DNA of 64,000 nt from Microbacterium terrisoli (lineage in GTDB: Bacteria; Actinomycetota; Actinomycetes; Actinomycetales; Microbacteriaceae). Position 1 is the first letter of the stretch; each line of letters starts with the position of its first letter. The position numbers and the translations under genes are program-made. The stretch is from positions 1,550,001 to 1,614,000 of the forward strand of contig NZ_CP133019.1 in the NCBI RefSeq assembly GCF_030866805.1. Direction: 5' to 3'. Shown here in pieces: positions 16,449 through 39,246 of the stretch. The notes below the pieces were generated by a model that saw only the letters and a program-made list of their open reading frames with translations, was not told where the DNA came from and did not search any database.

Positions 16449-16449
16449 C

Positions 16450-18284: not shown

Positions 18285-18293
18285 CCTCGCTCA

Positions 18294-18325: not shown

Positions 18326-18344
18326 GCGCGGGCGGGATGCTCGC

Positions 18345-18599
18345 TCAGTCCTCGATGTGCTGCTTGAGGTACTTCTTCTCGTGACCGGCGATCGGCGAGT
18401 CCAGCGGAGCGAGATGGCCCGTGCCGGCGCGGCGGACATCGACGATAGCTCCGATGGCCAGAGCCAGTGAGACCGCCCAGCCCACCCAGGCCAGTGCCGT
18501 GCGCCAGGTGAACGGCTCCTTCTCGCGAAGAGCGCGCAGCAGCTGCATGCCGCTGGTCGTGGCAGTGATGATCCCCGTCCCGAAGACATACTTGCGCAT
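18345..18599 (-). CDS. Small membrane protein, unknown function
   Basis: An 84-aa protein with a probable first helix at 5-20 and a clear hydrophobic segment at about 32-55 (TALAWVGWAVSLALAIGAIV). The polar C-terminal tail is rich in His, Lys and Glu. No named family is recognised. It is alone on the minus strand between convergent and divergent neighbours. The ATG at 18599 is the only sensible start. Codon use is ordinary for the window, which supports a real gene. Confidence 0.6.
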   Translation of the reverse strand: MRKYVFGTGIITATTSGMQLLRALREKEPFTWRTALAWVGWAVSLALAIGAIVDVRRAGTGHLAPLDSPIAGHEKKYLKQHIED

Positions 18600-18702
18600 G
18601 CCTCCACGCTAGCGTGCTGTCCGCTCGCCGCGCCGCGGACATCTCCGCGTTCGGGCGCTGTTAGCCTGAGAGTGCACTCGCGGAACGAAGGCAGGCACGG
18701 AC

Positions 18703-20109
18703 ATGCGCCAGGCAGAACTCGTCGTCGTCGCGAACCGTCTGCCCGTCGATCGAGACGAGAACGGCGGTTGGCGCAGGTCACCCGGGGGATTGGTGAGCGC
18801 GCTCGAGCCGGTCATGCGCACCGTCGACGGTGCGTGGGTGGGCTGGCCCGGTCAGGCGGGGCTCCACGTCGACGAGTTCGAGTTCGAAGGCACCCGGCTC
18901 GTACCCGTGACGCTGTCGGCGGAAGAGGTGGAGGACTACTACGAGGGGTTCTCCAACGACACGATCTGGCCGCTCTACCACGACGTGATCTCCGTTCCGA
19001 GGTACCGACGCGAGTGGTGGAACGCCTATCGCAAGGTCAACGAGCGGTTCGCGGATGCCGCGGCCGCCGTGGCCGCGTCGGGGGCGACGGTCTGGGTGCA
19101 GGACTATCAGCTGCAGCTGGTGCCGCAGTTGATCCGCGAGCGCAGGCCCGATGTCACGATCGGCTACTTCCATCACATTCCCTTCCCGGCATACGGCCTG
19201 TTCTCTCAGCTGCCGTGGCGACGGCAGGTGCTGGAAGGGCTGCTCGGAGCCGACGTGATCGGGTTCCAGCGCACCGCCGACGCCAGCAACTTCGCCCGTG
19301 CCGTGCATCGTCAGCTGCGCCATGAGACGCGGGCCAGCGGCATCCGGATCCCTCGAGAAGACGGCACGATCCGCGTGGCGCTCGCGAAGGCGTTCCCCAT
19401 CTCGATCGACACCGCCAGCTACATCGAGATGGCCGCGCGGCCCGACATCCAGCAGCGTGCGATCCAGATCCGCGAAGAGCTCGGCAATCCCGCCAAGATC
19501 CTGCTGGGAGTGGACCGGCTTGATTACACCAAGGGCATCCGTCATCGGATGAAGGCGTTCGGCGAGCTCCTGGCCGAAGGATGGCTTTCGGTCCAGAACG
19601 CCACCCTCGTCCAGGTGGCCAGCCCCAGCCGCGAGCGCGTGGCCGCGTATGTGCAGCTGCGTGACGAGATCGAGCTCATGGTGGGTCGCGTCAACGGCAC
19701 ATACGACACCATGGGACACACCGCCATCCGCTATCTGCATCAGGCGTTCCCGCGGGAAGAGATGGTGGCGCTGTACCTGGCCGCTGACGTCATGCTCGTC
19801 ACCGCTCTGCGCGACGGCATGAACCTCGTCGCCAAGGAGTACATCGCGAGCCGCATCGACAACCGGGGAGTGCTCGTGCTCAGCGAGTTCACCGGCGCGG
19901 CCGACGAGCTCGGCAGTGCCGTCCGGATCAACCCGCACGACATCGAGGGTGTCAAGGACGCCATCATGCAAGCCGTCGAGATGGCGCCTGCCGAGCAGGG
20001 CCGTCGCATGCGCAAACTGCGAAAGCGCGTGCAGGAGCATGACGTGCAGGCGTGGTCGCGCAGCTTCTTGACGGCTCTTGCCACGGCGCGGGAGGCGAAC
20101 GCCTCGTGA
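18703..20109 (+). CDS. otsA: Trehalose-6-phosphate synthase
   Basis: A 468-aa GT20 glycosyltransferase that makes trehalose 6-phosphate from UDP- or GDP-glucose and glucose 6-phosphate. Features include VVVANRLPVDRD at the start, SPGGLVSALEP, WVQDYQLQLVPQLIR, GYFHHIPFPAYGLFSQLPWR, LGVDRLDYTKGIRHRMKAF and ALRDGMNLVAKEYIASR. It is full length and cytoplasmic. It overlaps otsB by 4 nt, so both trehalose steps are coupled. A TAGCCT box (18662-18667) and GAAGG before the ATG mark promoter and ribosome binding site. Confidence 0.96.
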   Translation: MRQAELVVVANRLPVDRDENGGWRRSPGGLVSALEPVMRTVDGAWVGWPGQAGLHVDEFEFEGTRLVPVTLSAEEVEDYYEGFSNDTIWPLYHDVISVPRYRREWWNAYRKVNERFADAAAAVAASGATVWVQDYQLQLVPQLIRERRPDVTIGYFHHIPFPAYGLFSQLPWRRQVLEGLLGADVIGFQRTADASNFARAVHRQLRHETRASGIRIPREDGTIRVALAKAFPISIDTASYIEMAARPDIQQRAIQIREELGNPAKILLGVDRLDYTKGIRHRMKAFGELLAEGWLSVQNATLVQVASPSRERVAAYVQLRDEIELMVGRVNGTYDTMGHTAIRYLHQAFPREEMVALYLAADVMLVTALRDGMNLVAKEYIASRIDNRGVLVLSEFTGAADELGSAVRINPHDIEGVKDAIMQAVEMAPAEQGRRMRKLRKRVQEHDVQAWSRSFLTALATAREANAS

Positions 20110-24977: not shown

Positions 24978-26042
<1,065 letters not shown>

Positions 26043-26060
26043 TCGACCGAGCGACGAGGT

Positions 26061-26086
26061 GGGCCGGGGGAGCGATCCTCCGGCCC
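26061..26086 (+). terminator. Intrinsic-type terminator after ilvC
   Basis: An 11-bp stem (26061-26071 with 26076-26086, one G-U pair) with a GCGA loop lies 18 bp after the ilvC stop, followed by CTTC rather than a T-run. It also lies just past the 3' end of the convergent ROK gene. Confidence 0.7.
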
Positions 26087-26110
26087 CTTCGCTATCGGGC
26101 GTTTCGTGCC

Positions 26111-27223
26111 TCAGCGAAGTGATTCGAGGTACGAGCCCAGTGCCACCCCTGCCGCACCTCGGGCAACGCCCGCCGATGTCCACGCCACGACATCGACGGT
26201 GGGAGAGGCACCCAAAGTTGGCGTACTGCTCGCGATCGATGCAGTGAGGGGCTCGGCGATAGCGGCCCAGTACTGAGTCGTCCGCCCGCTGACGCGGATG
26301 TGATCGATGCCCAGGAGAGTGCTCACCGATCCGACGGCTCTTCCCAGTTCGCGGGAGCGGTCTTCGAGGAAAGCTGCGGTGGCGGCGTCCTGTGACATGT
26401 CGGACGCGCCGAGCGCACCGGCGGGCGCCCCCGCATTGAGCTCGGCATAGCCGAAGACCGTCTGCACACATCCACGATTCCCGCACCGACACAGGGCGCC
26501 GTTGGGATCAGTGCTGATATGCCCGAATTCGATGCTCCCGTGACGCACTCCACGCACGATCGAGCGGGCGGTGACGATGGCCATGCCGACACCGTCGCCA
26601 ATATGCAACAGGAGAAAGCTGTCAGGAACGGTCGGCGCGAACGCCAACTCGCGCTGCGCGAGGGCGATGACGTCATTCTCGACGAATACGGGTAGAGGTA
26701 TGATCTTTCGCAGTTCGGCGCCGAGTGGATAGTCATGCCAGCCCAAGACTGTGGAGATCAAGACCGTACCGTCGGTGGTGTCTACGACACCCGAGACGGT
26801 CACTCCGACCGCGATGACCGGCCGGGGGTGGAGTGCGTGGCGTAGAGCATCCACGGCTCTGACTATCCCGGCGATTTCGCCACCGGGTTCGATCGGGACG
26901 TGCTGGGTGTCGGCAATTTCTCCGGCAATAGTCACGGCAGCCGCGAGGATGCCCGTGCGCTCGATGGAGACGCCGACGAGCACTCCGCCGTCCTCCCGCG
27001 GCTCAAGAGGGATGCTGGGGCGGCCACTGGTGGTGGTGAGCGGTGCCCCCTCCTGAACGAAGCCGTGCTTGACGAGCGTCCGCACGTGGGTGCCGACCGT
27101 GGCGGGGACCAGGCCGAGGCGCGCCGCGAGTCTTTGTCTGCTGGAACCGGGAGAGCGGGCGATCTCGCTGAAGATCAGCCCGCGGCTGGACGTTCCTGCA
27201 GAAGGATACGGCGTACCGTCCAT
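26111..27223 (-). CDS. ROK-family transcriptional repressor (NagC/XylR/Mlc type)
   Basis: A 370-aa protein with an N-terminal winged helix (SSRQRLAARLGLVPATVGTHVRTLVKHGFVQEG) fused to a ROK sugar-binding domain: GVTVSGVVDTTDGTV, FVENDVIALAQREL and the zinc motif CRCGNRGCVQ. It should bind a sugar or sugar phosphate and release DNA. The ATG at 27223 has GGGAGGGGAA upstream; a longer reading frame to 27334 would cover the operator. It is divergent from the sugar ABC-transport operon, whose promoter carries a matching inverted repeat, so it is the likely repressor of the island. Confidence 0.88.
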   Translation of the reverse strand: MDGTPYPSAGTSSRGLIFSEIARSPGSSRQRLAARLGLVPATVGTHVRTLVKHGFVQEGAPLTTTSGRPSIPLEPREDGGVLVGVSIERTGILAAAVTIAGEIADTQHVPIEPGGEIAGIVRAVDALRHALHPRPVIAVGVTVSGVVDTTDGTVLISTVLGWHDYPLGAELRKIIPLPVFVENDVIALAQRELAFAPTVPDSFLLLHIGDGVGMAIVTARSIVRGVRHGSIEFGHISTDPNGALCRCGNRGCVQTVFGYAELNAGAPAGALGASDMSQDAATAAFLEDRSRELGRAVGSVSTLLGIDHIRVSGRTTQYWAAIAEPLTASIASSTPTLGASPTVDVVAWTSAGVARGAAGVALGSYLESLR

Positions 27224-27295
27224 CGTTTCCCCTCCCGGCCGGCCGTCGCATGACCGCCATCTGATTCTTGCAGGCGCAAACATCGGATGAAAGGG

Positions 27296-27327
27296 TTGCG
27301 CTGAAGTAAATTGCGAGATAAATTTAC
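27296..27327 (+). promoter_or_regulatory. Sugar-island promoter with overlapping ROK operator
   Basis: TTGCGC (27296-27301), a 17-bp spacer and TAAATT (27319-27324) form a promoter towards the ABC operon. GTAAATT-N8-AATTTAC (27306-27327), a perfect inverted repeat, covers the spacer and the whole -10. The A/T-rich palindrome resembles ROK repressor sites in general form; binding is inference. Confidence 0.6.
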
Positions 27328-27390
27328 CCCACAATCAATAGCGTCAGCGCCAGGACGGGCCGCTGGGCATCTGCAATGGAGGAGATTCGC

Positions 27391-28662
27391 GTGTCGAAAT
27401 ACAAGAAGAGCGCGGCGGCGATTCTCGCCGTCGCTGGACTGGCCGCAGGTCTGACTGCCTGTTCGTCGTCCGCCGGCGGTTCAGGTGGGGGCTCAGGCTC
27501 GCTGACGTGGAGCTTCTGGGACCAAGGGTCATCGAACAGTTCCTGGCAGGCACTGGCCGCCGACGTGCACAAACAGGACGCCGACATCACGGTGAAGCTC
27601 ACGCAGACGCCCTTTGCCGATTACTTCACCAAGTTGCAGTCGCAGTTGGCGGCCGGTACCACCGCGTGCATCGTGAGCATGCAGAGTTTGCGGCTGCCCG
27701 CGTTCAAGGACGCGCTCGAGCCGCTGGGTCCGCTGATGAAGAAGGCCGGATTCGACGAATCGCAGTGGAACCCTGGTGCGCTCAAGGCGCTGCAGGTCGA
27801 CGGCCAGCAGTACGCGATCCCATACGGCCTGTCGACGATGTTGCTGTACTACAACAAGGACGCGTTTGCGAAGGCCGGCGTGCCTGCTCCGACCAATGAC
27901 TGGACCACGTCCGACTTCGAAAGTGCCGCAGCCAAGATCACCGCAGTCGACGGCAAGCCCGCATTCGGACAGTCGTTCTCGGACCTGCACATGTTCTCGA
28001 TGCTGTTCGCCTACAACGGGGCGCGGCCAGTCACCGATGCGGCGAAGCTCGATCTCACGAACAGTCCGATGGAGCAGGCGTTCACGTGGTACTCGGGTCT
28101 TGCGACGAAGGAGAAGGTGTCGTCGATTCCGGCGAGCTCATCTGACGTGCCCTGGGGCGAGCAACAATTCGTGGCGGGCAACGTCGCAATGGCGGTCGAC
28201 GGCGACTGGAACATCTCGTCGGACGCCACTCAGGCGGCATTCCCGGTCGGAGTGGTGGCTCTCCCCCAGGGCCCGAACGGTGGCGGAACCTACTCTGCGA
28301 ACTCCGGCTTCGGCATCGCTAAGAGCTGCCAGAACAAGGAGGCCGCGGCGAAGGCCATCGCGATCATCACGAGTGAGTCAGCGCAGGTCGAGCAGGCGAA
28401 GGCGGGCACGCATCCTGCTCGTTTGGCTGCCGACGACGCCTTCTTCCAGGCGCTCGCCACGGCAACCGACAAGAAGAGCCCAGGCTATGCCGCTCAGGCA
28501 AAGGCGGCGATGGAGGCAGCAAGCGCGAAGTCGGTTCCGTTCATCAGCACGTCTTCGTGGGATCAGACGACAAAGTTGATCGCGCGCGAATTCATCCTGG
28601 CGTATTCCGGCAGTGAGAGCGCCGACACCGCGTTGCAGAACGTGCAGCAGTCGTCCAAGTAG
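27391..28662 (+). CDS. ABC sugar-transport substrate-binding lipoprotein
   Basis: A 423-aa family-1-type solute-binding protein for oligosaccharides. The lipoprotein signal ends in GLAAGLTAC (Cys24), followed by a Ser/Gly linker; LTWSFWDQGSSNSSWQALAADV and YAIPYGLSTMLLYYNKDAFAKAGV are typical of this class. The GTG at 27391 was preferred over the ATG at 27376 because the latter overlaps the GGAGGA ribosome-binding site. It is the first gene of an operon with two permeases and no ATPase, so a shared MsiK-type ATPase elsewhere probably energises it. Enzymes downstream point to a sulfated or fucosylated glycan. Confidence 0.88.
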   Translation: MSKYKKSAAAILAVAGLAAGLTACSSSAGGSGGGSGSLTWSFWDQGSSNSSWQALAADVHKQDADITVKLTQTPFADYFTKLQSQLAAGTTACIVSMQSLRLPAFKDALEPLGPLMKKAGFDESQWNPGALKALQVDGQQYAIPYGLSTMLLYYNKDAFAKAGVPAPTNDWTTSDFESAAAKITAVDGKPAFGQSFSDLHMFSMLFAYNGARPVTDAAKLDLTNSPMEQAFTWYSGLATKEKVSSIPASSSDVPWGEQQFVAGNVAMAVDGDWNISSDATQAAFPVGVVALPQGPNGGGTYSANSGFGIAKSCQNKEAAAKAIAIITSESAQVEQAKAGTHPARLAADDAFFQALATATDKKSPGYAAQAKAAMEAASAKSVPFISTSSWDQTTKLIAREFILAYSGSESADTALQNVQQSSK

Positions 28663-28676
28663 GTCCATCGATTCAC

Positions 28677-28707
28677 GGTGGGGCGGACGCGCGATGTCCG
28701 CCCCACC
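28677..28707 (+). terminator. Intercistronic hairpin (partial terminator / mRNA stabiliser)
   Basis: A perfect 12-bp stem (GGTGGGGCGGAC with GTCCGCCCCACC) with a 7-nt loop fills the gap between the binding-protein gene and the first permease gene. Such hairpins commonly raise the level of the binding-protein message relative to the permeases. No T-run follows. Confidence 0.65.
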
Positions 28708-28723
28708 TGCAGGAAGGCTCCAC

Positions 28724-29638
28724 ATGACCGCTCTGGCTGAGCGCGCGCCCGTTCGCACACGCGACAGGCGACGGCGACGTAACGACACCCGTGCTGCTCT
28801 GGCGTTTCTCACACCGAGCGCCGCCGGCCTGACCGTCTTCATCCTGTTCCCTTCTGTGCTCGCGATCGCCACAAGCCTCTTCCACTGGCCGACATACGGT
28901 GACATCACCTTCGCGGGACTCGACAACTACGCGGAGCTGTTCAGCGCACGTAGTGACTTCGGGCCCGCGCTGCTGAACACCGTGGTGTTCACGTTGCTGA
29001 TCGTTCCGATCAACTTGGTGTTGACTGTCGGGGTCGCGTTCTGGGTGGCGTCCAGCAGGTTCCGGCAGCTCTATCGCGTGCTCTTCTTCATCCCCGTCGT
29101 CACTCCGTCAGTGGCCACGGCCATCATCTGGAAGCTCCTGTACCAGCCCGATGGCGTGCTCAGCTGGGTGGCGGGGATGTTCGGCGCAACGCCGCCCAAC
29201 TTCCTGGCGTCGCCCTCGAGCGCTCTGCTCTCGGTGGTAGTCGTCATCCTGTGGAACGGCTTCGGCTACAACATGCTGATCTTCTCCGCCGCGATCGACC
29301 AGCTGCCGGAGGACGTACTGGCCGCCGCGTCGCTCGACGGTGCCGGCCGCTGGCGCACGATGTTCCAGATGAAGCTGCCTCTGATGACGCCTGCGATCTT
29401 CTTCGCGACCACGGTGACACTGATCCAGTCGTTCCAGATCTTCAACGAGCCGTACGTCATGACAGCCGGAGGCCCCGGCACCTCGACGATCACAGTCGTC
29501 ATGAACGTCTATCAGACGGCATTCCAGTCCGGTCAGCTCGGAGAGGCGGCAGCCCCGGCGATCGTCCTGTTCGTCCTGATCCTCGTCGTCACCCTGGTCC
29601 AGTGGACCGGGCAGAAGAAGTGGGTGCAGTATGAGTGA
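28724..29638 (+). CDS. ABC sugar-transport permease 1 (MalF-like)
   Basis: A 304-aa membrane protein with six predicted helices. The cytoplasmic EAA loop is EDVLAAASLDGAGRWRTMFQMKLP, preceded by LSVVVVILWNGFGYNMLIF; AFLTPSAAGLTVFILFPSVLAI is the first helix. The ATG at 28724 follows AGGAAGG. An Arg-rich N-terminal tail (RTRDRRRRRNDTR) faces the cytoplasm. It overlaps the second permease gene by 8 nt. Confidence 0.92.
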   Translation: MTALAERAPVRTRDRRRRRNDTRAALAFLTPSAAGLTVFILFPSVLAIATSLFHWPTYGDITFAGLDNYAELFSARSDFGPALLNTVVFTLLIVPINLVLTVGVAFWVASSRFRQLYRVLFFIPVVTPSVATAIIWKLLYQPDGVLSWVAGMFGATPPNFLASPSSALLSVVVVILWNGFGYNMLIFSAAIDQLPEDVLAAASLDGAGRWRTMFQMKLPLMTPAIFFATTVTLIQSFQIFNEPYVMTAGGPGTSTITVVMNVYQTAFQSGQLGEAAAPAIVLFVLILVVTLVQWTGQKKWVQYE

Positions 29639-30488
29639 CAGATCAACCATCGGAGTGCGGATCGGCCGAAGAACCGCGCGTTCGGCGAACGAGGTCGCGC
29701 TGGCGCTCGTTGCGCTGCTGTTCCTGTTTCCGGTGATCTTTACGATCACGTCATCGTTCAAGCCGAACAATGAGATCTTCCAGTCGCCGCCCTCGCTGTG
29801 GGGCAGCGAATTCCGTTGGCAGAACTATGTCGAGGTCTTTCAGAACGCCCCGTTCCTGCAGTACATCATCAACGGCATCATCCAATCGGTCGGCGGCACT
29901 CTCATCGTGCTGGCCGTCTCGGCACTTGCCGCGTATGCATTCGGCATCCTGCGCTGGCGTGGCCGCGACCAGAGCATGCTGGCGTATTTGGCCACCATGA
30001 TGATCCCTCAGGAGGTGCTGGTCATCCCGATGTTCCTGCTGATGCAGAAGTTCGGCTGGATCAACACATGGCAGGCACTGATCCTGCCCTGGGCCTTCGG
30101 CGCCTTCGGAACATTCCTTCTGCGACAGTTCTTCTCGACACTTCCCTACGAGCTGGTCGAGGCCTCACGCATGGACGGCTGCAGTAACTGGCGCACGTTC
30201 ATGAAGATCATCCTGCCTCTGGCGCGTCCATCATTGGCCGTTCTGGCAGTGTGGACTTTCATCACCTACTGGAACAGCTTTCTGTGGCCGCTGATTGCCG
30301 TGAACGACATACACGCATTGGGCAACGTGCCGCTGGGTCTACAGACGTTCTTCGGTGAGCACGGTGCGTCATGGAACCTCATCATCGCGGCGTCGGTGAT
30401 CTCAATCGCGCCGACGTTGCTGTTGCTGCTGTTGTTGCAGAAGCACCTCGTGAAGGGCATCGCGACTGTCGGACTGGCAGGAAGATGA
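29631..30488 (+). CDS. ABC sugar-transport permease 2 (MalG-like)
   Basis: A 285-aa membrane protein. ALVALLFLFPVIFTITSSFKPNNEI is the first helix, and the EAA loop is YELVEASRMDGCSNWRTFMKIILPLARP, followed by AVWTFITYWNSFLWPLI. It forms the channel with permease 1. Its stop overlaps the sulfatase start (ATGA), linking uptake directly to desulfation. Confidence 0.92.
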   Translation: MSDRSTIGVRIGRRTARSANEVALALVALLFLFPVIFTITSSFKPNNEIFQSPPSLWGSEFRWQNYVEVFQNAPFLQYIINGIIQSVGGTLIVLAVSALAAYAFGILRWRGRDQSMLAYLATMMIPQEVLVIPMFLLMQKFGWINTWQALILPWAFGAFGTFLLRQFFSTLPYELVEASRMDGCSNWRTFMKIILPLARPSLAVLAVWTFITYWNSFLWPLIAVNDIHALGNVPLGLQTFFGEHGASWNLIIAASVISIAPTLLLLLLLQKHLVKGIATVGLAGR

Positions 30489-31903
30489 CTGCGGTCACGC
30501 GCCGTCGGAGCGTCGTCGTTTTTCTCGCCGACGATCTCGGGTGGGGAGACCTGGGATGCTTCGGAAGCACTGCGATCCGTACCCCGGTGCTGGACGCGCT
30601 CGCTGAGGGAGGGATGCGGTTCACCGACTGCCACGCGGTCTCAGCTGTGTGCACGCCGAGCCGCTACGGCCTGCTGACGGGTGAGTACCCCTGGCGCTCG
30701 CCACTGCGCGAAGGCGTGCTCGGCGGCACCGATCCTTCGATTCTTCGCGATGGCCAGATCACCGTGGCATCGATGTTCCGGGATGCCGGGTATCGGACTG
30801 GCGCGTTCGGCAAATGGCACCTGGGACTGGGGTGGACCCGTCTCGACGGAACGACCCGTGCTGCGTTCGACGGGGCGTTCCATCCTGACATGCAGGCCTC
30901 CGGGCGTGACGTCGACTACTCGGCGCCCTTCGCTGATGGACCGATCTCGCACGGGTTCGATCGCTTCTTCGGCATCGCCGGATCGCTGGACATGCCGCCG
31001 TACTGCTACCTGGATCAGGACCGAACCGTCGGCATCCCCGATCGAGAGAAGGACCCCCTGGTGACCAGTCAGCGCCCGGGACTGCAGGTCGAGGGCTGGC
31101 AGGACGACCGCGTGGACGTCGACATCATTGACACTGCGTGCGATTGGATTCGGGAACAGGCCGCGTTGGACCAACCGTTCTTCGCGTACGTCGCCTCGGC
31201 AGCGCCGCACCGGCCGTGCGTGCCGCCAGAGTTCGTGCAGGGACTGTCAGAGGCGGGAGCCCGCGGTGATGCCGTGTGCCTCGTCGACTGGATGGTGGGT
31301 CGCATCCAGGACGTCCTGCGTGAGGCCGGCATCGCGCAGGACACCCTCATCGTGTTCACCAGCGACAACGGTGCACCGATGATCTTTCCCGAGGATGGCG
31401 ATGTCACCGAGCACCATCCGAACGGCGCATGGCGTGGCCAGAAGGCCGATGCATGGGAGGGTGGTCATCGGGTCCCGCTGATCGTGGCAGGCCCCGGCAT
31501 CGTGTCTGGGACGGTCGATGAGCCGGTCAGCCTGCTTGACGTGCTGCCGACTCTGGCGATGCTCACCGGCATTTCGGCATCGAATTCCGCAGGTGATGGC
31601 GTGGTGCTGGCCGGATTCACGCCGTCGCGCGCTCGAATCATCGGCCAGCAGGCTTTTGACGGAGCTCTCACTCTGCGCGCGGGAGACGAGAAGGTGATCC
31701 TGTCCACGGGTTCGGGAGGGTTCAGCGACCCCGTCGGCCATCCGGTCGCGGTGACCGCTGAGGTCGCGCAGTTCTACGATCTGGGCGATGATCCGGGCGA
31801 ACGCGAGAACCTGTGGCATGAGCGCCGAGCGCGCGTCGCTGAGATGCTCGCTCGGTTCAGCGCGCAGACGGGCTACCGGCACGAGGTCGTCGATGATGGC
31901 TGA
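30485..31903 (+). CDS. Type-I sulfatase (formylglycine-dependent), cytoplasmic
   Basis: A 472-aa S1-family arylsulfatase-type enzyme. The signature CTPSRYGLLTG holds Cys56, which a formylglycine-generating enzyme must oxidise; FLADDLGWGDLG gives the calcium-binding Asp pair, FGKWHLG and FTSDNGAP the other metal/sulfate ligands. It removes sulfate esters, presumably from an imported oligosaccharide. No signal peptide is present, unusual for glycan sulfatases and consistent with action after import. No modifying enzyme is in the window. The ATG overlaps the permease stop; a longer upstream frame lies within the permease gene. Confidence 0.88.
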   Translation: MTAVTRRRSVVVFLADDLGWGDLGCFGSTAIRTPVLDALAEGGMRFTDCHAVSAVCTPSRYGLLTGEYPWRSPLREGVLGGTDPSILRDGQITVASMFRDAGYRTGAFGKWHLGLGWTRLDGTTRAAFDGAFHPDMQASGRDVDYSAPFADGPISHGFDRFFGIAGSLDMPPYCYLDQDRTVGIPDREKDPLVTSQRPGLQVEGWQDDRVDVDIIDTACDWIREQAALDQPFFAYVASAAPHRPCVPPEFVQGLSEAGARGDAVCLVDWMVGRIQDVLREAGIAQDTLIVFTSDNGAPMIFPEDGDVTEHHPNGAWRGQKADAWEGGHRVPLIVAGPGIVSGTVDEPVSLLDVLPTLAMLTGISASNSAGDGVVLAGFTPSRARIIGQQAFDGALTLRAGDEKVILSTGSGGFSDPVGHPVAVTAEVAQFYDLGDDPGERENLWHERRARVAEMLARFSAQTGYRHEVVDDG

Positions 31904-32816
31904 TCGAGCACAGATTGCCGGCATAGACATCGGTGGCACCAAGATCGCTGCGATTCTCACGACAGGTGACGGCAGCGTCACCGCGCGGGGCGTCGCATCG
32001 ACGCCCGCTCGAGCGGGCGGCGATGCGATTGTGGATGCCGCAGCCCGGCTGGTCGCTGAACTCAGCCGAGTGCACGACGTCCGAGTCGCTGCGGCGGGCG
32101 TGGGCACCGCCGGCGTCGTCGACCACTCTGACGGCGTCGTCGTCGCGGCGTCCCAGACGTTCAGCGGCTGGGCCGGGTACCGGCTCGGAGACGTCCTCAG
32201 CACACGTCTCGGGGTGCCTGTTCATGTCGAAAACGACGTGAACGCGTTTCTCGTCGGCGAATCTGCCTGGGGTGCCTCACCTGCTCGAGACGTGCTGGGC
32301 GTGATGCTCGGAACGGGCGTGGGCGGTGCGCTGCTTCTCGACGGCGTGCTGCGTCACGGGCCACATGGAGGAGCCGGAGAGATCGGGCACACGCCAGGGT
32401 ACGGCGATATCCGCTGTACGTGCGGACAGACGGGCCACCTTGAGACCGTCGCCTCCGGTACGTCGATCGGCCTGCGGTACGGCGAGCGAACGGGCCATGT
32501 GAACATCGGCGCACACGAAGTTGCTGAGCGTGCTCGGTCGGGCGACGGCGATGCGCGTGCGGTCTTCGATTCAGCCGGCCGCGCATTGGCGCTGGCGTGC
32601 GCAACGGCGGCAGGAATCGTCGACGTCTCGGTCGCCGTGATCGGCGGAGGCGTGACCCGCTCGTGGGATTTGCTGGCTCCGGCGATCGAGCGCACCCTGG
32701 CTACCGACTCGCCGGTGTCCGGCGCGGATCTGCGCATCGTGCGCGGGACTCTCGGCGGCAGTGCTGTAGCGCTGGGAGCCGCACATTCTGCACGGCAAGC
32801 AATGTCGGGTCGCTGA
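31893..32816 (+). CDS. ROK-family sugar kinase
   Basis: A 307-aa kinase without a DNA-binding domain. The phosphate-binding IDIGGTKIAAIL opens the protein, GTAGVVDHSDGVVVAASQTFSGW is the sugar loop, VENDVNAF carries the catalytic Asp, and LGTGVGGALLLDG is the second nucleotide segment. The zinc site reads GHTPGYGDIRCTCGQTGHLE: the usual third Cys is His. It should phosphorylate a hexose released from the imported glycan. ATGs at 31893 and 31896 are adjacent; the first is listed. It overlaps the sulfatase by 11 nt. Confidence 0.87.
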   Translation: MMADRAQIAGIDIGGTKIAAILTTGDGSVTARGVASTPARAGGDAIVDAAARLVAELSRVHDVRVAAAGVGTAGVVDHSDGVVVAASQTFSGWAGYRLGDVLSTRLGVPVHVENDVNAFLVGESAWGASPARDVLGVMLGTGVGGALLLDGVLRHGPHGGAGEIGHTPGYGDIRCTCGQTGHLETVASGTSIGLRYGERTGHVNIGAHEVAERARSGDGDARAVFDSAGRALALACATAAGIVDVSVAVIGGGVTRSWDLLAPAIERTLATDSPVSGADLRIVRGTLGGSAVALGAAHSARQAMSGR

Positions 32817-32854
32817 CCCCGCCGTCACCCTGACCTCTCGAAGGAGAATCGTCC

Positions 32855-34429
32855 ATGACCGATCGCCCTGACGCCTCACAGATCTGGATGGGGCCGCTGG
32901 TGGCCGTCGCACACGACGGTATGTCGCGTCCGCGTATCGGCATCGCCGGTATCTCGATCGAATCCAGCACCTTCTCGCCACACATCTCGGGCGACGAGGC
33001 GTTCACCGTCCGCACCGGCGCCGAGCTGCTGGCGTACTACCCCTTCCTCGAGCGGGGTCGGCCCCTGCGCGACGCGGCCGAGTGGATACCACTGACACAC
33101 GGCCGTTCGCTTCCCGGCGGTGCGGTGGCCCCCACGACCTACCTTCGTATGAAAGAGGCGATCATCGAAGGGATCAGTGCGCACGGTCCCTTCGACGGCT
33201 TCTTCTTCGACATCCATGGAGCGATGAGCGTCGTGGGGATGCAGGATGCCGAGGCCGACCTGGCCAGTGCGGTACGGGACGCACTGGGGCCGGACACGCT
33301 CATCAGCGCATCAATGGATCTGCACGGCAACGTGTCTCGGGAGCTTCTGGACGAGGTGGACTTGATCACCTGCTACCGGATGGCCCCGCACGAGGATTGG
33401 CTGAACACGAAGGAACGCGCCGCGCATCATCTGCTTGACCGACTGCGTGGGGCAGGCGGCACGGACCCTCTGCGCAGGCGACCCTACAAGGCGTGGGTGC
33501 CGGTGCCTGTACTCCTCCCCGGCGAGAAGACGAGCACACGGCTCGACCCCGCCAAGCGCATCTACGCGCAGGTGCCGGACGTCGAAGCCCTTCCCGGGGT
33601 CGTCGACGCGGCCATCTGGGTGGGTTACGCGTGGGCGGACGAACCACGCTGTCAGGCCGCTGTCGTCGTGACCGGAGATGAACGCGGAACCATCGCGCGC
33701 GAGGCGGAGAAACTCGCTCGTCTCTATTGGAATGCGCGCGAAGACTTCGCGTTCGTCGGACCGGCAGCCTCGCTCGGAGACGCACTGGATCGTGCCCTCG
33801 CTGATGGCGCCGCACGGCCGTACGTCATCTCCGACTCCGGCGACAACCCGACCGCCGGTGGCGCCGGCGACGTATCCTGGACTCTCGGCGAACTGCTCGC
33901 GCGTCCCGACCTGACCGACGGCGCGCGCACGGTGATCTACGCGTCCGTGTTCGACCCTGGAGCAGTGGCCGAAGCCGTGGCGGCGGGCACAGGCGCCGCA
34001 GTCGAGTTGTCAGTGGGTGGTCGCGTGGACGCCGGCCCGCGTGGACCGGTCGCGCTGGGCGGCGAGATCGTGTCCATCACGGAGGGGGATGACGATGCCG
34101 GGACCCAGGTCGTCGTTCGGGCCGGCTCGGTCTACGCGATCGTGACGGAGCGGCGCAAGCCGTTTCACCATCTGGATGACTTCCGCATGCTCGGCCTGGA
34201 ACCCGAGAGCGCGGATGTGGTGATCGTGAAGATCGGCTATCTTGAGCCGGAGCTGTACGCGCTCGCCGCAGACTGGACACTTGCGCTGACCCCCGGCGGC
34301 GTAGACCAAGACCTCCTCCGGCTCGGTCACCGTCACCTCGCTCCCGGCGTCGTGCCGTTTGATACCTCGGTCCCGGACCCCGACCTGACGCCTGCGGTCT
34401 CTCGACGCGGTGAGGAAGATCACGCATGA
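32855..34429 (+). CDS. M81-family (MlrC-like) metallohydrolase
   Basis: A 524-aa protein of the microcystinase C (MlrC) family. Features are PRIGIAGISIESSTFSP, FFFDIHGAMSVVGMQDAEADL, SASMDLHGNVSRELL, CYRMAPHEDWLNTKERA and SDSGDNPTAGGAGD, with conserved Asp/His candidates for zinc. MlrC hydrolyses a linear microcystin peptide, but members often sit in sugar or amino-acid gene sets where their substrate is unknown. Here it lies between a sugar kinase and a fucosidase, so it may act on an amide or ester of a modified sugar (inference). GAAGGAG precedes the ATG; no signal peptide. Confidence 0.82.
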   Translation: MTDRPDASQIWMGPLVAVAHDGMSRPRIGIAGISIESSTFSPHISGDEAFTVRTGAELLAYYPFLERGRPLRDAAEWIPLTHGRSLPGGAVAPTTYLRMKEAIIEGISAHGPFDGFFFDIHGAMSVVGMQDAEADLASAVRDALGPDTLISASMDLHGNVSRELLDEVDLITCYRMAPHEDWLNTKERAAHHLLDRLRGAGGTDPLRRRPYKAWVPVPVLLPGEKTSTRLDPAKRIYAQVPDVEALPGVVDAAIWVGYAWADEPRCQAAVVVTGDERGTIAREAEKLARLYWNAREDFAFVGPAASLGDALDRALADGAARPYVISDSGDNPTAGGAGDVSWTLGELLARPDLTDGARTVIYASVFDPGAVAEAVAAGTGAAVELSVGGRVDAGPRGPVALGGEIVSITEGDDDAGTQVVVRAGSVYAIVTERRKPFHHLDDFRMLGLEPESADVVIVKIGYLEPELYALAADWTLALTPGGVDQDLLRLGHRHLAPGVVPFDTSVPDPDLTPAVSRRGEEDHA

Positions 34430-35775
34430 TGAACTTCGAATCCCGCATCGGCCCCGACATGGGCGCGTCCGCACCGACGTATCCGCGGTTCGGCGTGCCG
34501 GACTGGTTCCGAGACGCGAAGCTTGGCTTCTTCGTCCACTGGGGCCTGTATTCGGTGCCGGCGTGGGGGACTCCGCCAGGGATGCGGCATATACCCGTTG
34601 AGGATGCCTACATGCACCACCAGTACGCGGAGTGGTATGGGAACACGGTGCGCATCGCGGGCAGCCCGACATGGGAGCGGCACCAGCGTGTCTACGGCAC
34701 GGGAACCTCTTACGAGGATCTCGCCGATCTCTGGGACGCGTCGGCGTTCGACGCCGACGCGTTCATCGGCGAACTCGTCGACGCAGGTGCCCGGTATGTC
34801 GTGCCGACTGCCAAGCACCACGAGGGCTTCTGCCTCTGGGAGACGGCGACGACGCCGTTCAACGCGGTCGCGCGCGGCCCGCGCCGAGATCTTGTGGCCG
34901 AACTGCACGATGCCGCTCGGCGACGCGGAGCACGGTTCGGAGTGTATTACTCGGGGGCGCTGGATTGGCACGTCGGCGACTTCCCACCCATCCAGAGCGA
35001 TACGGATCTGTTTCGGTACCGGCGGAACGACGAACTGTATTCACGGTATGCGGCCGCGCAGCTTGATGAGCTGATCACGCGCTTCCACCCCGATGTACTG
35101 TGGAACGACATCGACTGGCCCGACGGCGGCAAGGGGGATGACGACTACGCGGTGGCGGCTTTGCTGCGCCGATACTTCGCGGCGGTCCCGGACGGCGTGG
35201 TCAACGATCGCTGGGGGGTGCCGTACCACGGCTACCTCACTCGGGAGTATGCCGATGTCGCCGACATCCTCGAGCCTGTGTGGGAGTCGACGCGCGGACT
35301 CGGGTTCTCTTTCGGCTACAACCAGGACGAAGACGGACGCCACTCGCTTTCCGGTGCAGCGCTGATTCGGCTGTTCGTGGACATCGTGGCCAAGAACGGC
35401 AATCTGCTGTTGAACGTCGGACCGCGTGCCGACGGATCGATCCCCGATCTCCAGCGTGCGGCGATGCGCGAACTGGGGGCGTGGCTGCGGACGAATGGCG
35501 AGGCCGTCTACGGCACGCGGCCGTGGATCCGTGCGGGGGAGCGCACCGGCGCGCCACGCGCCTACACCACATCGACGTCGGGTGTGCATGTTCACGCACT
35601 CGACCCCGCCGCGGGTGCGATCGGGCTTCCCGCAGAGCTTGCGCGCGCGGCCGACGCACGCTGGGCAGACGGGTCACCGGCTACCATCACGACATTGCCC
35701 GGCGGTCTCACCGAGGCCGCCATCCCCCGTGCGCTTCGCGGTGCGGCCGTGGCAGTCCTTACGCTGAGACCATGA
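34426..35775 (+). CDS. Alpha-L-fucosidase (GH29)
   Basis: A 449-aa GH29 glycosidase. FGVPDWFRDAKLGFFVHWGLYSVPAWG and VVPTAKHHEGFCLWET are diagnostic; the nucleophile is probably Asp228 in LWNDIDWP; NGNLLLNVGPRADGSIPD and a C-terminal beta domain follow. It releases L-fucose from glycans with retention. No signal peptide is seen, so it acts on imported oligosaccharide after desulfation. It overlaps the M81 gene by 4 nt and cutC by 4 nt. ATG codons at 34426 and 34429 are both possible. Confidence 0.9.
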   Translation: MMNFESRIGPDMGASAPTYPRFGVPDWFRDAKLGFFVHWGLYSVPAWGTPPGMRHIPVEDAYMHHQYAEWYGNTVRIAGSPTWERHQRVYGTGTSYEDLADLWDASAFDADAFIGELVDAGARYVVPTAKHHEGFCLWETATTPFNAVARGPRRDLVAELHDAARRRGARFGVYYSGALDWHVGDFPPIQSDTDLFRYRRNDELYSRYAAAQLDELITRFHPDVLWNDIDWPDGGKGDDDYAVAALLRRYFAAVPDGVVNDRWGVPYHGYLTREYADVADILEPVWESTRGLGFSFGYNQDEDGRHSLSGAALIRLFVDIVAKNGNLLLNVGPRADGSIPDLQRAAMRELGAWLRTNGEAVYGTRPWIRAGERTGAPRAYTTSTSGVHVHALDPAAGAIGLPAELARAADARWADGSPATITTLPGGLTEAAIPRALRGAAVAVLTLRP

Positions 35776-36509
35776 CGCCCGCACCCTCACCCGCCCTCCC
35801 TGTCGAGATCGCCGTGCAGGGCCCCGCGGGAGCCCGTATCGCGTTCGCCGAGGGTGCCGACCGCATTGAACTGTGCCAGGCGCTGGATGTCGGGGGCCTC
35901 ACGCCTTCGGCCGGAACCGTCGAGTGCGTGCTGGCAGAACTCGGCGACGGGCACGCAGTCGCGCCTCTTGTGCGTCCCCGCGGGGGCGGTTTCGTGTATG
36001 ACGACGACGAGTCGGCGGTGGTCGCCGCCGACATCCGCCACCTGGTCTCGCTCGGGGTCGGAGCAGTGGTCGTCGGGTGCCTGACCGCAGCAGGCACCAT
36101 CGACCGGACGCGGCTGGCCGAGTGGACGGATGCCGCAGCCGGCGCCGACGTCGTCTTCCACCGTGCGATCGACACGGTGGCTGACCCTGCTGCTGCGATC
36201 GACGTGCTCATCGAGTGCGGGGTCGCTCGCGTGCTGACGTCGGGCGGGGCGGGGCGCAGCATCGACGGCACGTCGGTGCTCGCCGAGCTGGTCGTGCGTG
36301 CCGGCGGTCGCCTGCAGATCATGGCGGGCGGGGGAGTCCGGGTCGTGGACATCGCCGCATTGCGCGCCGCCGGAGTCGACGCCGTGCACCTGTCGGCGCG
36401 GGCGCGCTCCGGGGACCGTTCGCCGAGCGGTCCCGGCGGCGGCGCGGACGGGCACGACGTGACCGACCCGGCGATCGTGCGCGCGGCGGTGGCAGCGGCA
36501 CGCGCCTGA
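35772..36509 (+). CDS. CutC-family protein
   Basis: A 245-aa TIM-barrel protein. VEIAVQGPAGARIAFAEGADRIELCQAL, LVRPRGGGFVYDDDE, VVFHRAIDTVADPAAAI and VLTSGGAGRSIDGT are the family signatures. It was named for copper homeostasis, but no copper-binding cluster is visible and the family's reaction is unsettled. It is translationally coupled (ATGA) to the fucosidase, which suggests a role in sugar or sugar-phosphate metabolism rather than copper. The last ~30 residues before the final helix are Gly/Ser/Asp-rich. It is the last gene of the island operon. Confidence 0.85.
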   Translation: MTPAPSPALPVEIAVQGPAGARIAFAEGADRIELCQALDVGGLTPSAGTVECVLAELGDGHAVAPLVRPRGGGFVYDDDESAVVAADIRHLVSLGVGAVVVGCLTAAGTIDRTRLAEWTDAAAGADVVFHRAIDTVADPAAAIDVLIECGVARVLTSGGAGRSIDGTSVLAELVVRAGGRLQIMAGGGVRVVDIAALRAAGVDAVHLSARARSGDRSPSGPGGGADGHDVTDPAIVRAAVAAARA

Positions 36510-36574
36510 TCCCGCCTCGGGCGTGTGATTCCGCGTCGCGGATGCCCTGTGACCGGTGCCCTAGACTGGCGCGC

Positions 36575-37114
36575 ATGGCTCCCGATCCGCGCATCCCCGA
36601 GGATGATGACGCTCTGCACTGGGACGGCGACGAAGAGCCGCGCGTCACCCTGCCGAAGGGGTGGGAGGCGCTCGGCCCGGGCGCTGAGCGTGTGACGCAG
36701 CAGGCGGACGATTCGGCGGGCGACACCGCCGATGATGCCGTGTCGCCGCCACCCGGCGCCGCGGTGGCAGCCGCGCCGGGTGGACGTGCCGCCGATGGCG
36801 CCGCGGAGGCGCCCGCGCAGCTGAGCAACGTCGCCCTGGTGGGCTTCGGTGTGCTCGGCGGCGCCTACCTGCTGTACACGATCGGATGGATCATCGGCGG
36901 GTATCGGCTGCAGGGGCGCGCACAGTGGATGGTCACCGATGCGATGTTCCAGGGCAGCTTCTGGCTGACGATCCTGGCACCGCTGATCTGGTTCGTGACC
37001 GTCCTGCTGCTCACCCGCGGCAGACGCATGTGGGTGCGTATCGTCTGGCTCGTCGCCGGGGTCGTGCTGCTCGTGCCCTGGCCGTTCGTGATGACCGGGT
37101 TGGTGGGACTGTGA
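36575..37114 (+). CDS. Membrane protein with acidic N-terminal tail, unknown function
   Basis: A 179-aa protein. The first ~85 residues are acidic, then Ala/Pro/Gly-rich and probably disordered and cytoplasmic; three hydrophobic helices follow (about 88-108, 124-145 and 155-175). TAGACT (36562-36567) ends 7 nt before the ATG, so the gene is likely leaderless, which sets the start. It forms an operon with the next membrane gene. I do not recognise the family. Confidence 0.75.
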   Translation: MAPDPRIPEDDDALHWDGDEEPRVTLPKGWEALGPGAERVTQQADDSAGDTADDAVSPPPGAAVAAAPGGRAADGAAEAPAQLSNVALVGFGVLGGAYLLYTIGWIIGGYRLQGRAQWMVTDAMFQGSFWLTILAPLIWFVTVLLLTRGRRMWVRIVWLVAGVVLLVPWPFVMTGLVGL

Positions 37115-37116
37115 GC

Positions 37117-37503
37117 ATGGCCGAGCAGAGCAACGGCGAGCACGACGAGAACGTCGCGGTCGCGGCATCCCGCACTCACATGCCGATGTGGCTGTTCGGG
37201 ACGATCATCGGACTCTTCGGACTCTTCTACGCCTACGCGGTGTGGAATGCGCTGTCGAACCTCATCCAGACCGTGCAGCAGTATGACGCGCTGGGTGTTC
37301 CGCTGAATGCGCTGGGGTGGCTGCTGTGGATCTTCGCCGCCGTCTTCCCGATCGTGGTCTATGCCGTCGCAGTGCGCATCGCGGCGCACCGCCACGCCGG
37401 GCACGTGGCGCTGGTGATGCTCGCCGGGCTTGCGCTGGTGGCCGTGTTCTGGCTCGACGTCGTCGCATACGCGACGCTGAACACGCACGCGCTCATCTCG
37501 TGA
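37117..37503 (+). CDS. Small three-helix membrane protein, unknown function
   Basis: A 128-aa protein with a polar N-terminus of about 22 residues and three hydrophobic helices (MWLFGTIIGLFGLFYAYAV; LGWLLWIFAAVFPIVVYAV; HVALVMLAGLALVAVFWLDVVAYA). It follows the previous membrane gene by 2 nt. A GTG at 37111 (GTGA overlap with the previous stop) would add two residues and is equally likely. The two products may form a complex (inference). Confidence 0.75.
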   Translation: MAEQSNGEHDENVAVAASRTHMPMWLFGTIIGLFGLFYAYAVWNALSNLIQTVQQYDALGVPLNALGWLLWIFAAVFPIVVYAVAVRIAAHRHAGHVALVMLAGLALVAVFWLDVVAYATLNTHALIS

Positions 37504-37653
37504 GCAGGCGGCGCAGCGCTGTGGCCGTCACATGGTCGGGAGCGGCCGGGTCCGCGCGGTAGGCTGTGACCGTCTCGCCCCGAAGGCGTGCGGCGCGGCA
37601 TTCCCGTCATCACCGCCGTCGCGCGCTGCGCGCTTGCCGAAGGGCTTCTCGCT

Positions 37654-39246
37654 GTGACCAAACCCGTCGTCCTCATCGCCGAACAGCTTTCGCCCGCCAC
37701 AATCGACGCGCTCGGTCCGGATTTCGATGTCCGCCAGGTCGATGGAACCGACCGGCCCGCGCTGCTGGCAGCCCTCGCAGAGGCAGACGCGGTGCTGATC
37801 CGGTCGGCGACGAAGATGGATGCCGAGGCCATCGCCGCGGCCCGCCGTCTGAAGGTCATCGCCCGCGCCGGTGTCGGCCTCGACAACGTCGACACCCCCG
37901 CGGCCACCGCCGCCGGGGTCATGGTCGTCAACGCCCCCACCTCGAACATCATCTCGGCCGCCGAGCTCACGGTCGGTCACATCCTGTCGCTCGCGCGGCA
38001 CATTCCCGCCGCCCACGCCTCGCTGTCGGCGGGGGAGTGGAAGCGCAGTTCGTTCACCGGTGTGGAGCTGTTCGACAAGACCGTCGGAATCGTCGGCCTC
38101 GGCCGCATCGGCGCCCTGATCACGGCACGCCTGCAGAGCTTCGACATGAAGGTCATCGCCTACGACCCTTACGTCACGAGCGCACGCGCACAGCAGCTCG
38201 GGGTGGAGCTGGTCAGCCTGGACGAGCTGCTCGAGCGCAGCGACTTCGTCACGGTGCACATGCCGAAGACTCCCGAGACCACCGGCATGATCAGCACACC
38301 GCAACTGCAGCGCATGAAGTCGACAGCGTTCGTGATCAATGTCGCCCGCGGCGGCCTCATCGATGAGGACGCTCTGTTCACGGCGCTGGGCTCCGGCGAG
38401 ATCGCCGGGGCCGGTCTGGACGTCTTCTCGTCCGAGCCACCCACCGACAAGCGTCTGCTGTCGCTGCCGAACGTCTCCGTCACGCCACACCTGGGCGCCT
38501 CGACCGCCGAGGCGCAGGAGAAGGCGGGCGTGTCTGTGGCTAAGTCCGTGCGCCTGGCGCTGGACGGCGAGCTCGTGCCCGACGCTGTGAACGTCGCCGG
38601 CGGTGTGATCGACCCCTACGTGCGCCCCGGCATCCCGCTGGTGGAGAAGCTCGGCCAGATCTTCTCCGGTCTGGCGCGTTCGCCGTTGACGAGCCTGGAC
38701 ATCGAAGTGCACGGCGAGCTGCAGGGTTACGACGTCAGCGTTCTCAAGCTGGCGGCGTTGAAGGGCGTGTTCACGCCCATCGTCAGCGAGTCGGTGTCGT
38801 ACGTGAACGCACCGTTGCTGGCACAGCAGCGCGGTGTCGAGGTGCGGCTGATCGTCGACGACAACAGCCCCGAATACCGCAACGTCATCACGTTGCGCGG
38901 TGCGCTCTCGGACGGCTCGCAGCTGTCGGTCTCGGGCACGCTCACCGGCCCGAGGCAGGTCGAGAAGCTGGTCGGCATCAACGAGTACGCCGTCGAGCTG
39001 CCCATCGAGCAGCATCACATCGTCATGCTCTACACCGACCGCCCGGGCATCGTGGCGGTGTTCGGCCAGCGGTTCGGGGATGCCGGCATCAACATCGCCG
39101 GCATGCAGATCGCGCGCCAGTCGGCCGGTGGCCAGGCGCTGTCCGTGCTCACGGTCGACTCGCCCGTCTCGGACGAACTGCTCGAACTCGTGCGCACGGA
39201 CATCGATGCCGACCTGTTCCGTCAGATCGAGATCATCGAGAGCTGA
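37654..39246 (+). CDS. serA: D-3-phosphoglycerate dehydrogenase
   Basis: A 530-aa long-form SerA that oxidises 3-phosphoglycerate in serine synthesis. The NAD motif is VGIVGLGRIGALIT, active-site segments include ARGGLIDEDAL and the His/Glu pair in VTPHLGAST; an intervening domain and a C-terminal ACT domain (HHIVMLYTDRPGIVAVFGQRF) allow serine feedback. The GTG at 37654 has GAAGGG 9 nt upstream; a TAGGCT box near 37560 suggests an ~80-nt leader. A weak CTGAGC-N16-GCTCAG hairpin (39243-39270) marks the 3' end. Confidence 0.95.
   Translation: MTKPVVLIAEQLSPATIDALGPDFDVRQVDGTDRPALLAALAEADAVLIRSATKMDAEAIAAARRLKVIARAGVGLDNVDTPAATAAGVMVVNAPTSNIISAAELTVGHILSLARHIPAAHASLSAGEWKRSSFTGVELFDKTVGIVGLGRIGALITARLQSFDMKVIAYDPYVTSARAQQLGVELVSLDELLERSDFVTVHMPKTPETTGMISTPQLQRMKSTAFVINVARGGLIDEDALFTALGSGEIAGAGLDVFSSEPPTDKRLLSLPNVSVTPHLGASTAEAQEKAGVSVAKSVRLALDGELVPDAVNVAGGVIDPYVRPGIPLVEKLGQIFSGLARSPLTSLDIEVHGELQGYDVSVLKLAALKGVFTPIVSESVSYVNAPLLAQQRGVEVRLIVDDNSPEYRNVITLRGALSDGSQLSVSGTLTGPRQVEKLVGINEYAVELPIEQHHIVMLYTDRPGIVAVFGQRFGDAGINIAGMQIARQSAGGQALSVLTVDSPVSDELLELVRTDIDADLFRQIEIIES

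Follow-up and report, generated by a model that had tools for sequence, protein, structure and literature searches.

In the stretch of 64,000 nucleotides of Microbacterium terrisoli DNA analysed here (the window), a nine-gene island occupies an insertion hotspot anchored on the left by ilvC (25014..26042, forward strand) and on the right by serA (37588..39246, forward strand, with its true start probably further in). The gene nearest ilvC is on the reverse strand and encodes a ROK-family transcriptional repressor (26111..27223; PF00480 plus a winged HTH), for which the longest open reading frame begins at TTG 27334 and the likely start is ATG 27223. The other eight genes are on the forward strand and encode a CUT1 solute-binding lipoprotein (27376..28662; PF01547), ABC permease 1 (28724..29638; PF00528), ABC permease 2 (29631..30488; PF00528), an S1 formylglycine sulfatase with an S1_15-like fold (30485..31903; PF00884, 164 bits), a ROK sugar kinase (31893..32816; PF00480, 175 bits), an M81 or MlrC-like metallohydrolase (32921..34429; PF07364 and PF07171), a GH29 alpha-L-fucosidase (34426..35775; PF01120, 294 bits against a cut-off of 25.2) and a CutC-family protein (35772..36509; PF03932, 183 bits). 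The open reading frames and Pfam profiles confirmed the place and the families of all nine genes as given in the preliminary description. Several likely starts lie downstream of the longest-ORF starts, namely those of permease 1 (near 28724), the sulfatase (30485, with an ATGA overlap with the permease 2 stop), the kinase (31893 or 31896), M81 (32921) and CutC (35772, with an ATGA overlap with the GH29 stop). Neighbouring genes among the eight on the forward strand either overlap or have at most about 105 bases between them, which is consistent with one operon.

The operon encodes the binding protein and the two permeases of a CUT1 importer, and one OB_MalK ATPase match was found elsewhere in the genome; this MalK-type ATPase presumably serves the importer. 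In a crude hydropathy scan, the binding protein scored high, and it carries a lipobox-like LTAC, while no signal-like stretch was seen at the N-terminus of the sulfatase, kinase, M81, GH29 or CutC proteins. Among the sulfatase homologues in the matches listed, 0 of 120 were above the signal threshold of the same scan. The absence of a signal peptide from both the sulfatase and the fucosidase, as described before, was thus borne out by this crude scan, and both enzymes are probably cytoplasmic.

The maturation motif C/S-x-P-S-R of the sulfatase is present as C56-T-P-S-R60, and C56, P58, S59 and R60 were invariant in 48 aligned homologues. The predicted model (pLDDT 93) and the sequence both had S1_15 structures as top matches (9bau, 9bas, 7ozc, 7oze and 7p26, with 32-34% identity over the structural alignment), followed by human arylsulfatase A as the next structural neighbour. 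No formylglycine-generating enzyme had been noted in the window, and the sole PF03781 match of the genome indeed lies outside it (275.6 bits, G000:C1:3236840-3237733), so the possibility that the genome has no sulfatase maturase, named in the preliminary description as a ground for refutation, was rejected. A PF03781 match was present in seven of eight chosen genomes, and a profile search of the Tessaracoccus OS52 genome gave none.

The characterised S1_15 enzymes are described, in the available excerpts of the source, as 6-O-sulfatases of Gal/GalNAc, with galacto-recognition by His and Asp/Arg residues, and 6s20 is a GalNAc-6-O-sulfatase of this kind. The S1_15 structures share the fold and the catalytic site with the window sulfatase. 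Those of B. theta are described there as periplasmic; the window sulfatase differs in having no visible signal peptide and in its presumed dyad, since the presumed Asp-Arg dyad of galacto-recognition reads Asp-Met in the module sulfatases (GSLDMPP; the site assignment is itself presumed). Fucose has no O6. As the nearest solved sulfatases are 6-O-sulfatases of Gal/GalNAc, the sulfate may sit on the partner sugar and not on fucose. The alternative, that fucose itself is sulfated as in fucoidan-like fragments and that the sulfatase is an exo-fucose-sulfatase acting before GH29, is possible, though less likely than not. In its favour, the GH29 enzyme is the sole glycosidase in the operon, the exchange of the presumed Arg for Met means that specificity may have moved, and marine Verrucomicrobiota loci with GH29 and S1_15 likely target sulfated fucose according to the available text of PMC8857213.

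For the GH29 enzyme, whose gene gives the genome's single PF01120 match, the best solved relative was the Thermotoga maritima fucosidase 1hl8, and D228 and E274 align with D224 and E266 of that enzyme, which we take to be the GH29 catalytic pair. The sulfatase and GH29 therefore both appear to keep their catalytic residues. Outside the operon, a cluster of genes encodes an L-fuconate dehydratase (E 1.4e-177 to the solved L-fuconate dehydratase 2hne, with no NCBIfam model above its cut-off), an AKR nearest to L-galactose dehydrogenases, an amidohydrolase nearest to 4dlf and presumably in a lactonase role, an SDR, and an FAH-like protein resembling 2,4-didehydro-3-deoxy-L-rhamnonate hydrolase at a score below the cut-off of that family. 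The similarity of the four proteins other than the dehydratase is weaker, with none above an equivalog cut-off. An oxidative L-fucose pathway is thus probable in this strain, and the absence of fucose catabolism was rejected as a likely case. By raw count, this dehydratase was found in 14 of the 15 chosen module genomes, the exception being Tessaracoccus OS52, which has a fucose isomerase. The fucose isomerase FucI (PF07881), present in one of seven genomes, is missing not only from the window, as had been noted, but from the entire source genome, so an isomerase route in this strain was rejected. The affinity of the AKR for L-galactose dehydrogenases and the presence of exo-alpha-L-galactosidases (7ljj) among the solved GH29 relatives would also suit a sulfated alpha-L-galactoside as substrate, with GH29 acting on L-galactose. 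This reading is very improbable, since the T. maritima alpha-L-fucosidase is closest by far (E 4.5e-110 vs. 2.7e-55) and the closest match of the dehydratase is to L-fuconate dehydratase.

The specificity of the ROK kinase could not be read from its PDB matches. In the M81 protein, the zinc-site residues E14, H99, D133, H135 and H157 are all present, and each of these columns is kept in 31-32 of 32 rows, with gaps counted as not kept. Around 20 M81 loci, matches above 80 bits were found to the ROK kinase in 13, to CutC in 7, to GH29 in 4 and to the sulfatase in none, and M81 also occurs in loci without GH29 or sulfatase. The M81 loci of large genomes, which we take to be Streptomyces-like, have an oligopeptide-type transporter. 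Pfam scans of 20 proteins neighbouring M81 returned transporter parts, one more GH29, another sulfatase, oxidoreductases and unrelated proteins, and none of these 20 gave a clue to the M81 substrate.

The same set of genes is also found in Arthrobacter, Paenarthrobacter and Tessaracoccus, and in two further genomes. Seven other sulfatase-type loci (L033, L046-L050 and L148) were found in more than one gene order, and such recurrence with varied order indicates more than chance. A CutC match was missing from the Tessaracoccus locus L046, and the kinase match was weak in L033, L047-L050 and L148. Kinase identity was only 35-41% in the Micrococcaceae loci and 33% in genome G227, so the kinase step may differ among sulfatase-type loci. 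Between the repressor and binding protein genes of the window, inverted-repeat searches found an operator-like palindrome (27306..27327; GTAAATT-8-AATTTAC), which is a candidate operator. It differs from the TTAATTCGGnnCCGAATTAA type of palindrome that is common to L048, L049, L050 and L148 and has a shorter form in L047; in the same searches, L046 had only an imperfect GAATTC-centred palindrome and L033 had no operator-like palindrome.

In the 20 kb taken around each relative of the binding protein, a GH29 gene was present in 18 of 20 loci (raw count; many of these 18 neighbours are only 29-36% identical to the GH29 of the window), which makes fucosides the probable cargo of the transporter. 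In the binding-protein tree (rows of at least 28% identity and 70% of length), all eight sulfatase-type binding proteins fell in one clade (SH-aLRT 100; 8 vs. 29 rows), although the link between sulfatase and transporter is partly built in because six of the seven other loci were found via the sulfatase and only L148 without it. Long branches meet in the trees, as the tree-building warning reported, including where the sulfatase-type clade as a whole connects to the other rows, so the place of this clade among the remaining rows is unsure; the long rows of this tree are L157, L167, L116, L163, L160, L046 and L033. Sulfatase relatives at 47-50% identity adjoin other transporters (L034 and L051). 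The sulfatase could also be a passenger on a plain fucoside locus, scavenging sulfur from aryl or alkyl sulfates, as the existence of sulfatase-free versions of the locus and the proximity to human arylsulfatase A would allow. This is improbable, as one binding-protein clade combined with a sulfatase in varied gene orders favours a functional link, even with six loci recruited by the sulfatase.

The two parts of the island differ in their relationships. Within the genus, sulfatase-free islands also occur at this ilvC-serA site, and the kinase, M81 and GH29 group with them, whereas the front part, with regulator, transporter and sulfatase, is more like sulfatase-type loci and has a lower GC content (63.6% at 26111-31903, compared with 68.4% at 31893-36509 and 68.4% in the remaining window). 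Identity to six sulfatase-type loci vs. ten CUT1 sulfatase-free loci was 67-71% vs. 47-51% for permease 1, 75-85% vs. 56-58% for permease 2, and 34-40% vs. 23-29% for the repressor. A single sulfatase-type clade was rejected for GH29 (p-AU 0.0003; rows of at least 40% identity and 70% of length, with GH29 rows below 40% left out) and for M81 (p-AU 0.016; 13 of the 20 M81-context loci plus loci from other comparisons, with long rows L118, L120 and L046, and with only the best of two tblastn pieces in different frames used for L120 and L156). Both trees thus reject descent of the sulfatase-type locus as a single unit, with the identity contrast and GC content in agreement, and by sequence comparison the island looks like a chimera of two blocks by descent. 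The kinase of G227 breaks a neat split into two halves, and the trees do not fix how many exchanges took place: in both the GH29 and the M81 tree, L046 is placed away from the remaining sulfatase-type rows, but the support is weak and its M81 branch is long.

Taken together, the locus likely serves the import and cytoplasmic breakdown of sulfated fucosides, on an older fucoside island refitted with a cassette. Of the preliminary description, the import and cytoplasmic breakdown are strengthened by the GH29-linked relatives of the transporter and by a sulfatase that tracks one transporter clade, while the nearest solved sulfatases give no support to sulfate on the fucose. A small sulfated fucosyl oligosaccharide would be imported whole by the lipoprotein, the two permeases and the MalK-type ATPase from elsewhere, the FGE-matured sulfatase would remove sulfate in the cytoplasm, and GH29 would release L-fucose there, presumably after the sulfatase. 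The fucose would be oxidised via L-fuconate by the enzymes encoded in the separate cluster, the partner sugar would probably be phosphorylated by the ROK kinase, and M81 and CutC would process a further bond or intermediate. The divergent ROK protein would repress the operon until a sugar ligand comes. That no sugar would be lost to neighbours follows from this layout. By descent, an older fucoside island without sulfatase, situated between ilvC and serA, would have retained its kinase, M81 and GH29 genes, while a regulator-transporter-sulfatase cassette took the place of its front half.

The FHMO cluster of Bifidobacterium longum SC596 (PMC5069460) likewise has a binding protein and an ABC system that imports fucosylated oligosaccharides intact, together with fucosidases that lack a signal peptide, and no cross-feeding is expected; its available description names an L-fuconate dehydrogenase, whereas the fucose pathway of the present strain is elsewhere in the genome, and mentions no sulfatase, M81 or CutC. 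In another actinobacterium, Bifidobacterium breve, the locus Bbr_0851-0855 (PMC6045583) has a transporter gene adjoining a sulfatase gene and is listed under sulphated-sugar metabolism, but the excerpted account gives a single transport protein, an atsB maturase within the locus and no listed fucosidase. The marine Verrucomicrobiota locus mentioned above shares GH29 with an S1_15 sulfatase and differs in phylum, in two GH29 genes and in putative sialidases, with no CUT1-ROK-M81 arrangement in the text available. The microcystinase MlrC (7ylq; PMC12474180) shares the M81 family, the five zinc-site residues and a predicted cytoplasmic place; according to the accessible part of that paper its substrate is linear microcystin, in which it cleaves a peptide bond, whereas the M81 protein of the window sits among sugar genes. 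In the open-licence PMC literature, no paper was found joining CutC, fucosidase, ROK and sulfatase, on MlrC/M81 in an ABC transporter gene cluster, or on an actinobacterial cytoplasmic sulfatase-fucosidase locus.

More tentatively, actinobacterial fucoside loci might consist of exchangeable halves, one for specificity (repressor, transporter and sulfatase) and one for processing (kinase, M81, GH29 and CutC), such that a single swap of the front would take a bacterium from using plain fucosides to using sulfated ones, and M81 with the ROK kinase would have an undescribed sugar role in which the target might be an amide or an N-linked aglycone. For actinobacteria such as Arthrobacter and Tessaracoccus, the analysis predicts a transporter that takes up sulfated fucosyl oligosaccharides intact, and the related sulfatase-free transporters are natural controls, with which a comparison of binding proteins makes sulfate recognition testable. 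M81 and CutC, families with poorly known roles, are here placed beside a sugar kinase, a setting that makes their function accessible to assays, and a catabolic locus may acquire a new substrate class via cassette exchange.

In the window, the interval between ilvC and serA holds a divergent ROK repressor and then genes encoding a binding protein, two permeases, a sulfatase, a ROK kinase, an M81 protein, a GH29 fucosidase and CutC (operon at about 26111-36509), with gene starts moved inward wherever the longest ORFs ran too far. The locus is real and coherent. The operon content and opposing ROK repressor given in the preliminary description were borne out by ORF and family-profile evidence, and its claim that the sulfatase and fucosidase have no signal peptide held up in a crude hydropathy scan, where no export signal was seen in the operon enzymes. 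In the homologue alignment and structure model, the sulfatase N-terminus is directly the first core strand.

The sulfatase maturation motif is C56-T-P-S-R60, and D16, D17, K110, H112, D294, N295 and K320, which we take to be further S1 site positions, are invariant in 48 homologues. The GH29 aligns with the T. maritima fucosidase, also at D224 and E266, presumably the residues with catalytic roles. The M81 protein keeps all five residues around the zinc in the microcystinase MlrC, as given in part of one report (PMC12474180). The sulfatase model (pLDDT 93) was closest to S1_15 structures, followed by human arylsulfatase A. Fucose has no O6, one reason why, by analogy, we lean towards a sulfate on the partner sugar rather than on fucose. 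The other is that the S1_15 enzymes characterised so far, in the passages concerned of two papers, take 6-O-sulfate off Gal or GalNAc (PMC10154612, PMC12549532). A sulfate on fucose itself is the less favoured but possible reading, given that the presumed Asp-Arg dyad is, at its presumed position, Asp-Met in 8/8 module sulfatases.

Sulfatase searches also found the locus in G227 (same family), Tessaracoccus OS52, Paenarthrobacter PH39-S1, P. histidinolovorans, Arthrobacter HY1533 and H35-MC1, with more than one gene order. In the family search, 81/299 genomes had any sulfatase match, and among the matches listed only G227 (66%) and G235 (50%, other context) reached at least 50% over most of the sulfatase length besides the window. 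Sulfatase relatives near 47-50% in G235 (L034) and Microbacterium AK031 (L051, also with a distant GH29, 31%) lie beside more sulfatases and a different CUT1 transporter, and would belong to other sulfated-sugar loci. In Tessaracoccus rhinocerotis (L056, 9617-10864), a partial sulfatase match and a partial GH29 match on opposite strands overlap by ~75 bases, suggesting that the copy has decayed or been rearranged.

When 396 genomes from the order were searched with the binding protein, 36 had matches at E <= 1e-40; of the 38 non-self places, the best 20 other than G280 were taken as loci, with 17 weaker places left out. GH29 was present in 18/20 (29-74% identity to the window GH29; missing in L166 and L167), the yardstick being one GH29 per 3.63 Mb in the own genome, and M81 in 8/20. 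The sulfatase occurred in L148 alone, and none of the other 19 loci had a binding protein at about 58% identity. A near-identical palindrome, TTAATTCGGnnCCGAATTAA, lies 5' of the binding protein in L148 and three other sulfatase-type loci (L048, L049, L050), with a shorter form in L047; it differs from the window's palindrome and is likely a ROK operator.

Among M81-fetched loci, the kinase was present in 13/20, with CUT1 or oligopeptide-type transporters, and the M81-kinase pairing looks wider than a fucoside role. In L107, L110, L112 and similar large-genome loci, M81, ROK kinase and ROK repressor lie beside an SBP_bac_5 oligopeptide-type transporter, with no GH29 or sulfatase match in these loci. 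Locus L119 of another genome of the genus (G527) has four M81 matches in a stretch of less than 12 kb (7839-19667), accompanied by MFS transporters, a Gfo/Idh/MocA oxidoreductase, an epimerase and a creatinase-N-like protein.

Identities to six sulfatase-type loci versus ten sulfatase-free CUT1 loci were 59-65% versus 33-41% for the binding protein, 67-71% versus 47-51% for permease 1 and 75-85% versus 56-58% for permease 2, and the eight sulfatase-type rows formed one clade in the binding-protein tree (SH-aLRT 100; 29 other rows). For kinase, M81 and GH29, the same-genus islands (L129, L132, L136, L138) reached 61-65%, 73-75% and 70-75%, versus 33-52%, 66-76% and 52-76% for sulfatase-type loci, where M81 and GH29 were highest in G227 (76% each; kinase 33%) and the kinase in Tessaracoccus. 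The GH29 tree grouped the window and G227 with six same-genus sulfatase-free rows (support 97), and AU tests rejected a single sulfatase-type clade for GH29 (p 0.0003; 8 vs 14 rows) and for M81 (p 0.016; 8 vs 24 rows). GC content was 63.6% in the front block and 68.4% in the rear block and rest of the window. The locus looks chimeric, its front block (repressor to sulfatase) being the part probably exchanged. Since G227 shows the window-like pattern for GH29 and M81, this exchange may predate the species of the window, or may have happened twice.

Within the genus, the stretch between ilvC and serA is a hotspot. ilvC was found in 39/39 genus genomes searched, with serA within the same 20 kb in 13/14 fetched loci. 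These 13 held a sulfatase-free fucoside island in four, a lone GH29 relative in one and CutC in two; the anchors were 1.2-1.3 kb apart in two and 4.7-5.6 kb apart without module genes in four. The operon's sulfatase was found at the ilvC site in 0/14 fetched genus loci. Across the gap (window 26042-37588, L128-L141), varied inserts of 1.2 to 15.4 kb lie between conserved anchors in 13 loci. This site is also occupied by a sulfatase-free island in G280 (L102), which belongs to the same family but a different genus.

Parts of published reports describe similar features in known systems, namely uptake of fucosylated oligosaccharides together with cytoplasmic fucosidases in Bifidobacterium (PMC5069460), as proposed for the window, a transporter beside a sulfatase in B. 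breve (PMC6045583) and GH29 paired with S1_15 in Verrucomicrobiota (PMC8857213). No paper on the window's gene combination was found in the open-licence literature searched.

The own genome, one contig of 3.63 Mb, has four PF00884 (sulfatase family) matches, one GH29 and one OB_MalK ATPase. Whole-genome searches, named as checks in the preliminary description, found one formylglycine-generating enzyme (PF03781) and, for fucose catabolism, an L-fuconate dehydratase cluster, with fucose isomerase (FucI) absent genome-wide. In Tessaracoccus OS52 (L046), the genome has the sulfatase and no PF03781 match, perhaps reflecting another maturase or an assembly gap. The cluster (G000:C1:1282550-1291514) encodes an SDR, a FAH-type hydrolase, a LacI regulator, an AKR most similar to L-galactose dehydrogenases, L-fuconate dehydratase and an amidohydrolase whose closest structure is 4dlf. 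CoA-transferase-like and dehydratase-like genes are interspersed among these, and a binding-protein-like lipoprotein with no NCBIfam match comes next. Gene content, conserved catalytic residues and linkage were observed directly, as were the formylglycine-generating enzyme and fuconate dehydratase cluster elsewhere in the genome; we infer a sulfated fucosyl oligosaccharide as substrate, its import into the cell, the order of enzymatic steps, the kinase substrate and the repressor ligand. L-fuconate dehydratase was present in 14/15 chosen genomes, with FucI in the one exception, and released fucose is therefore probably usable by the cell.
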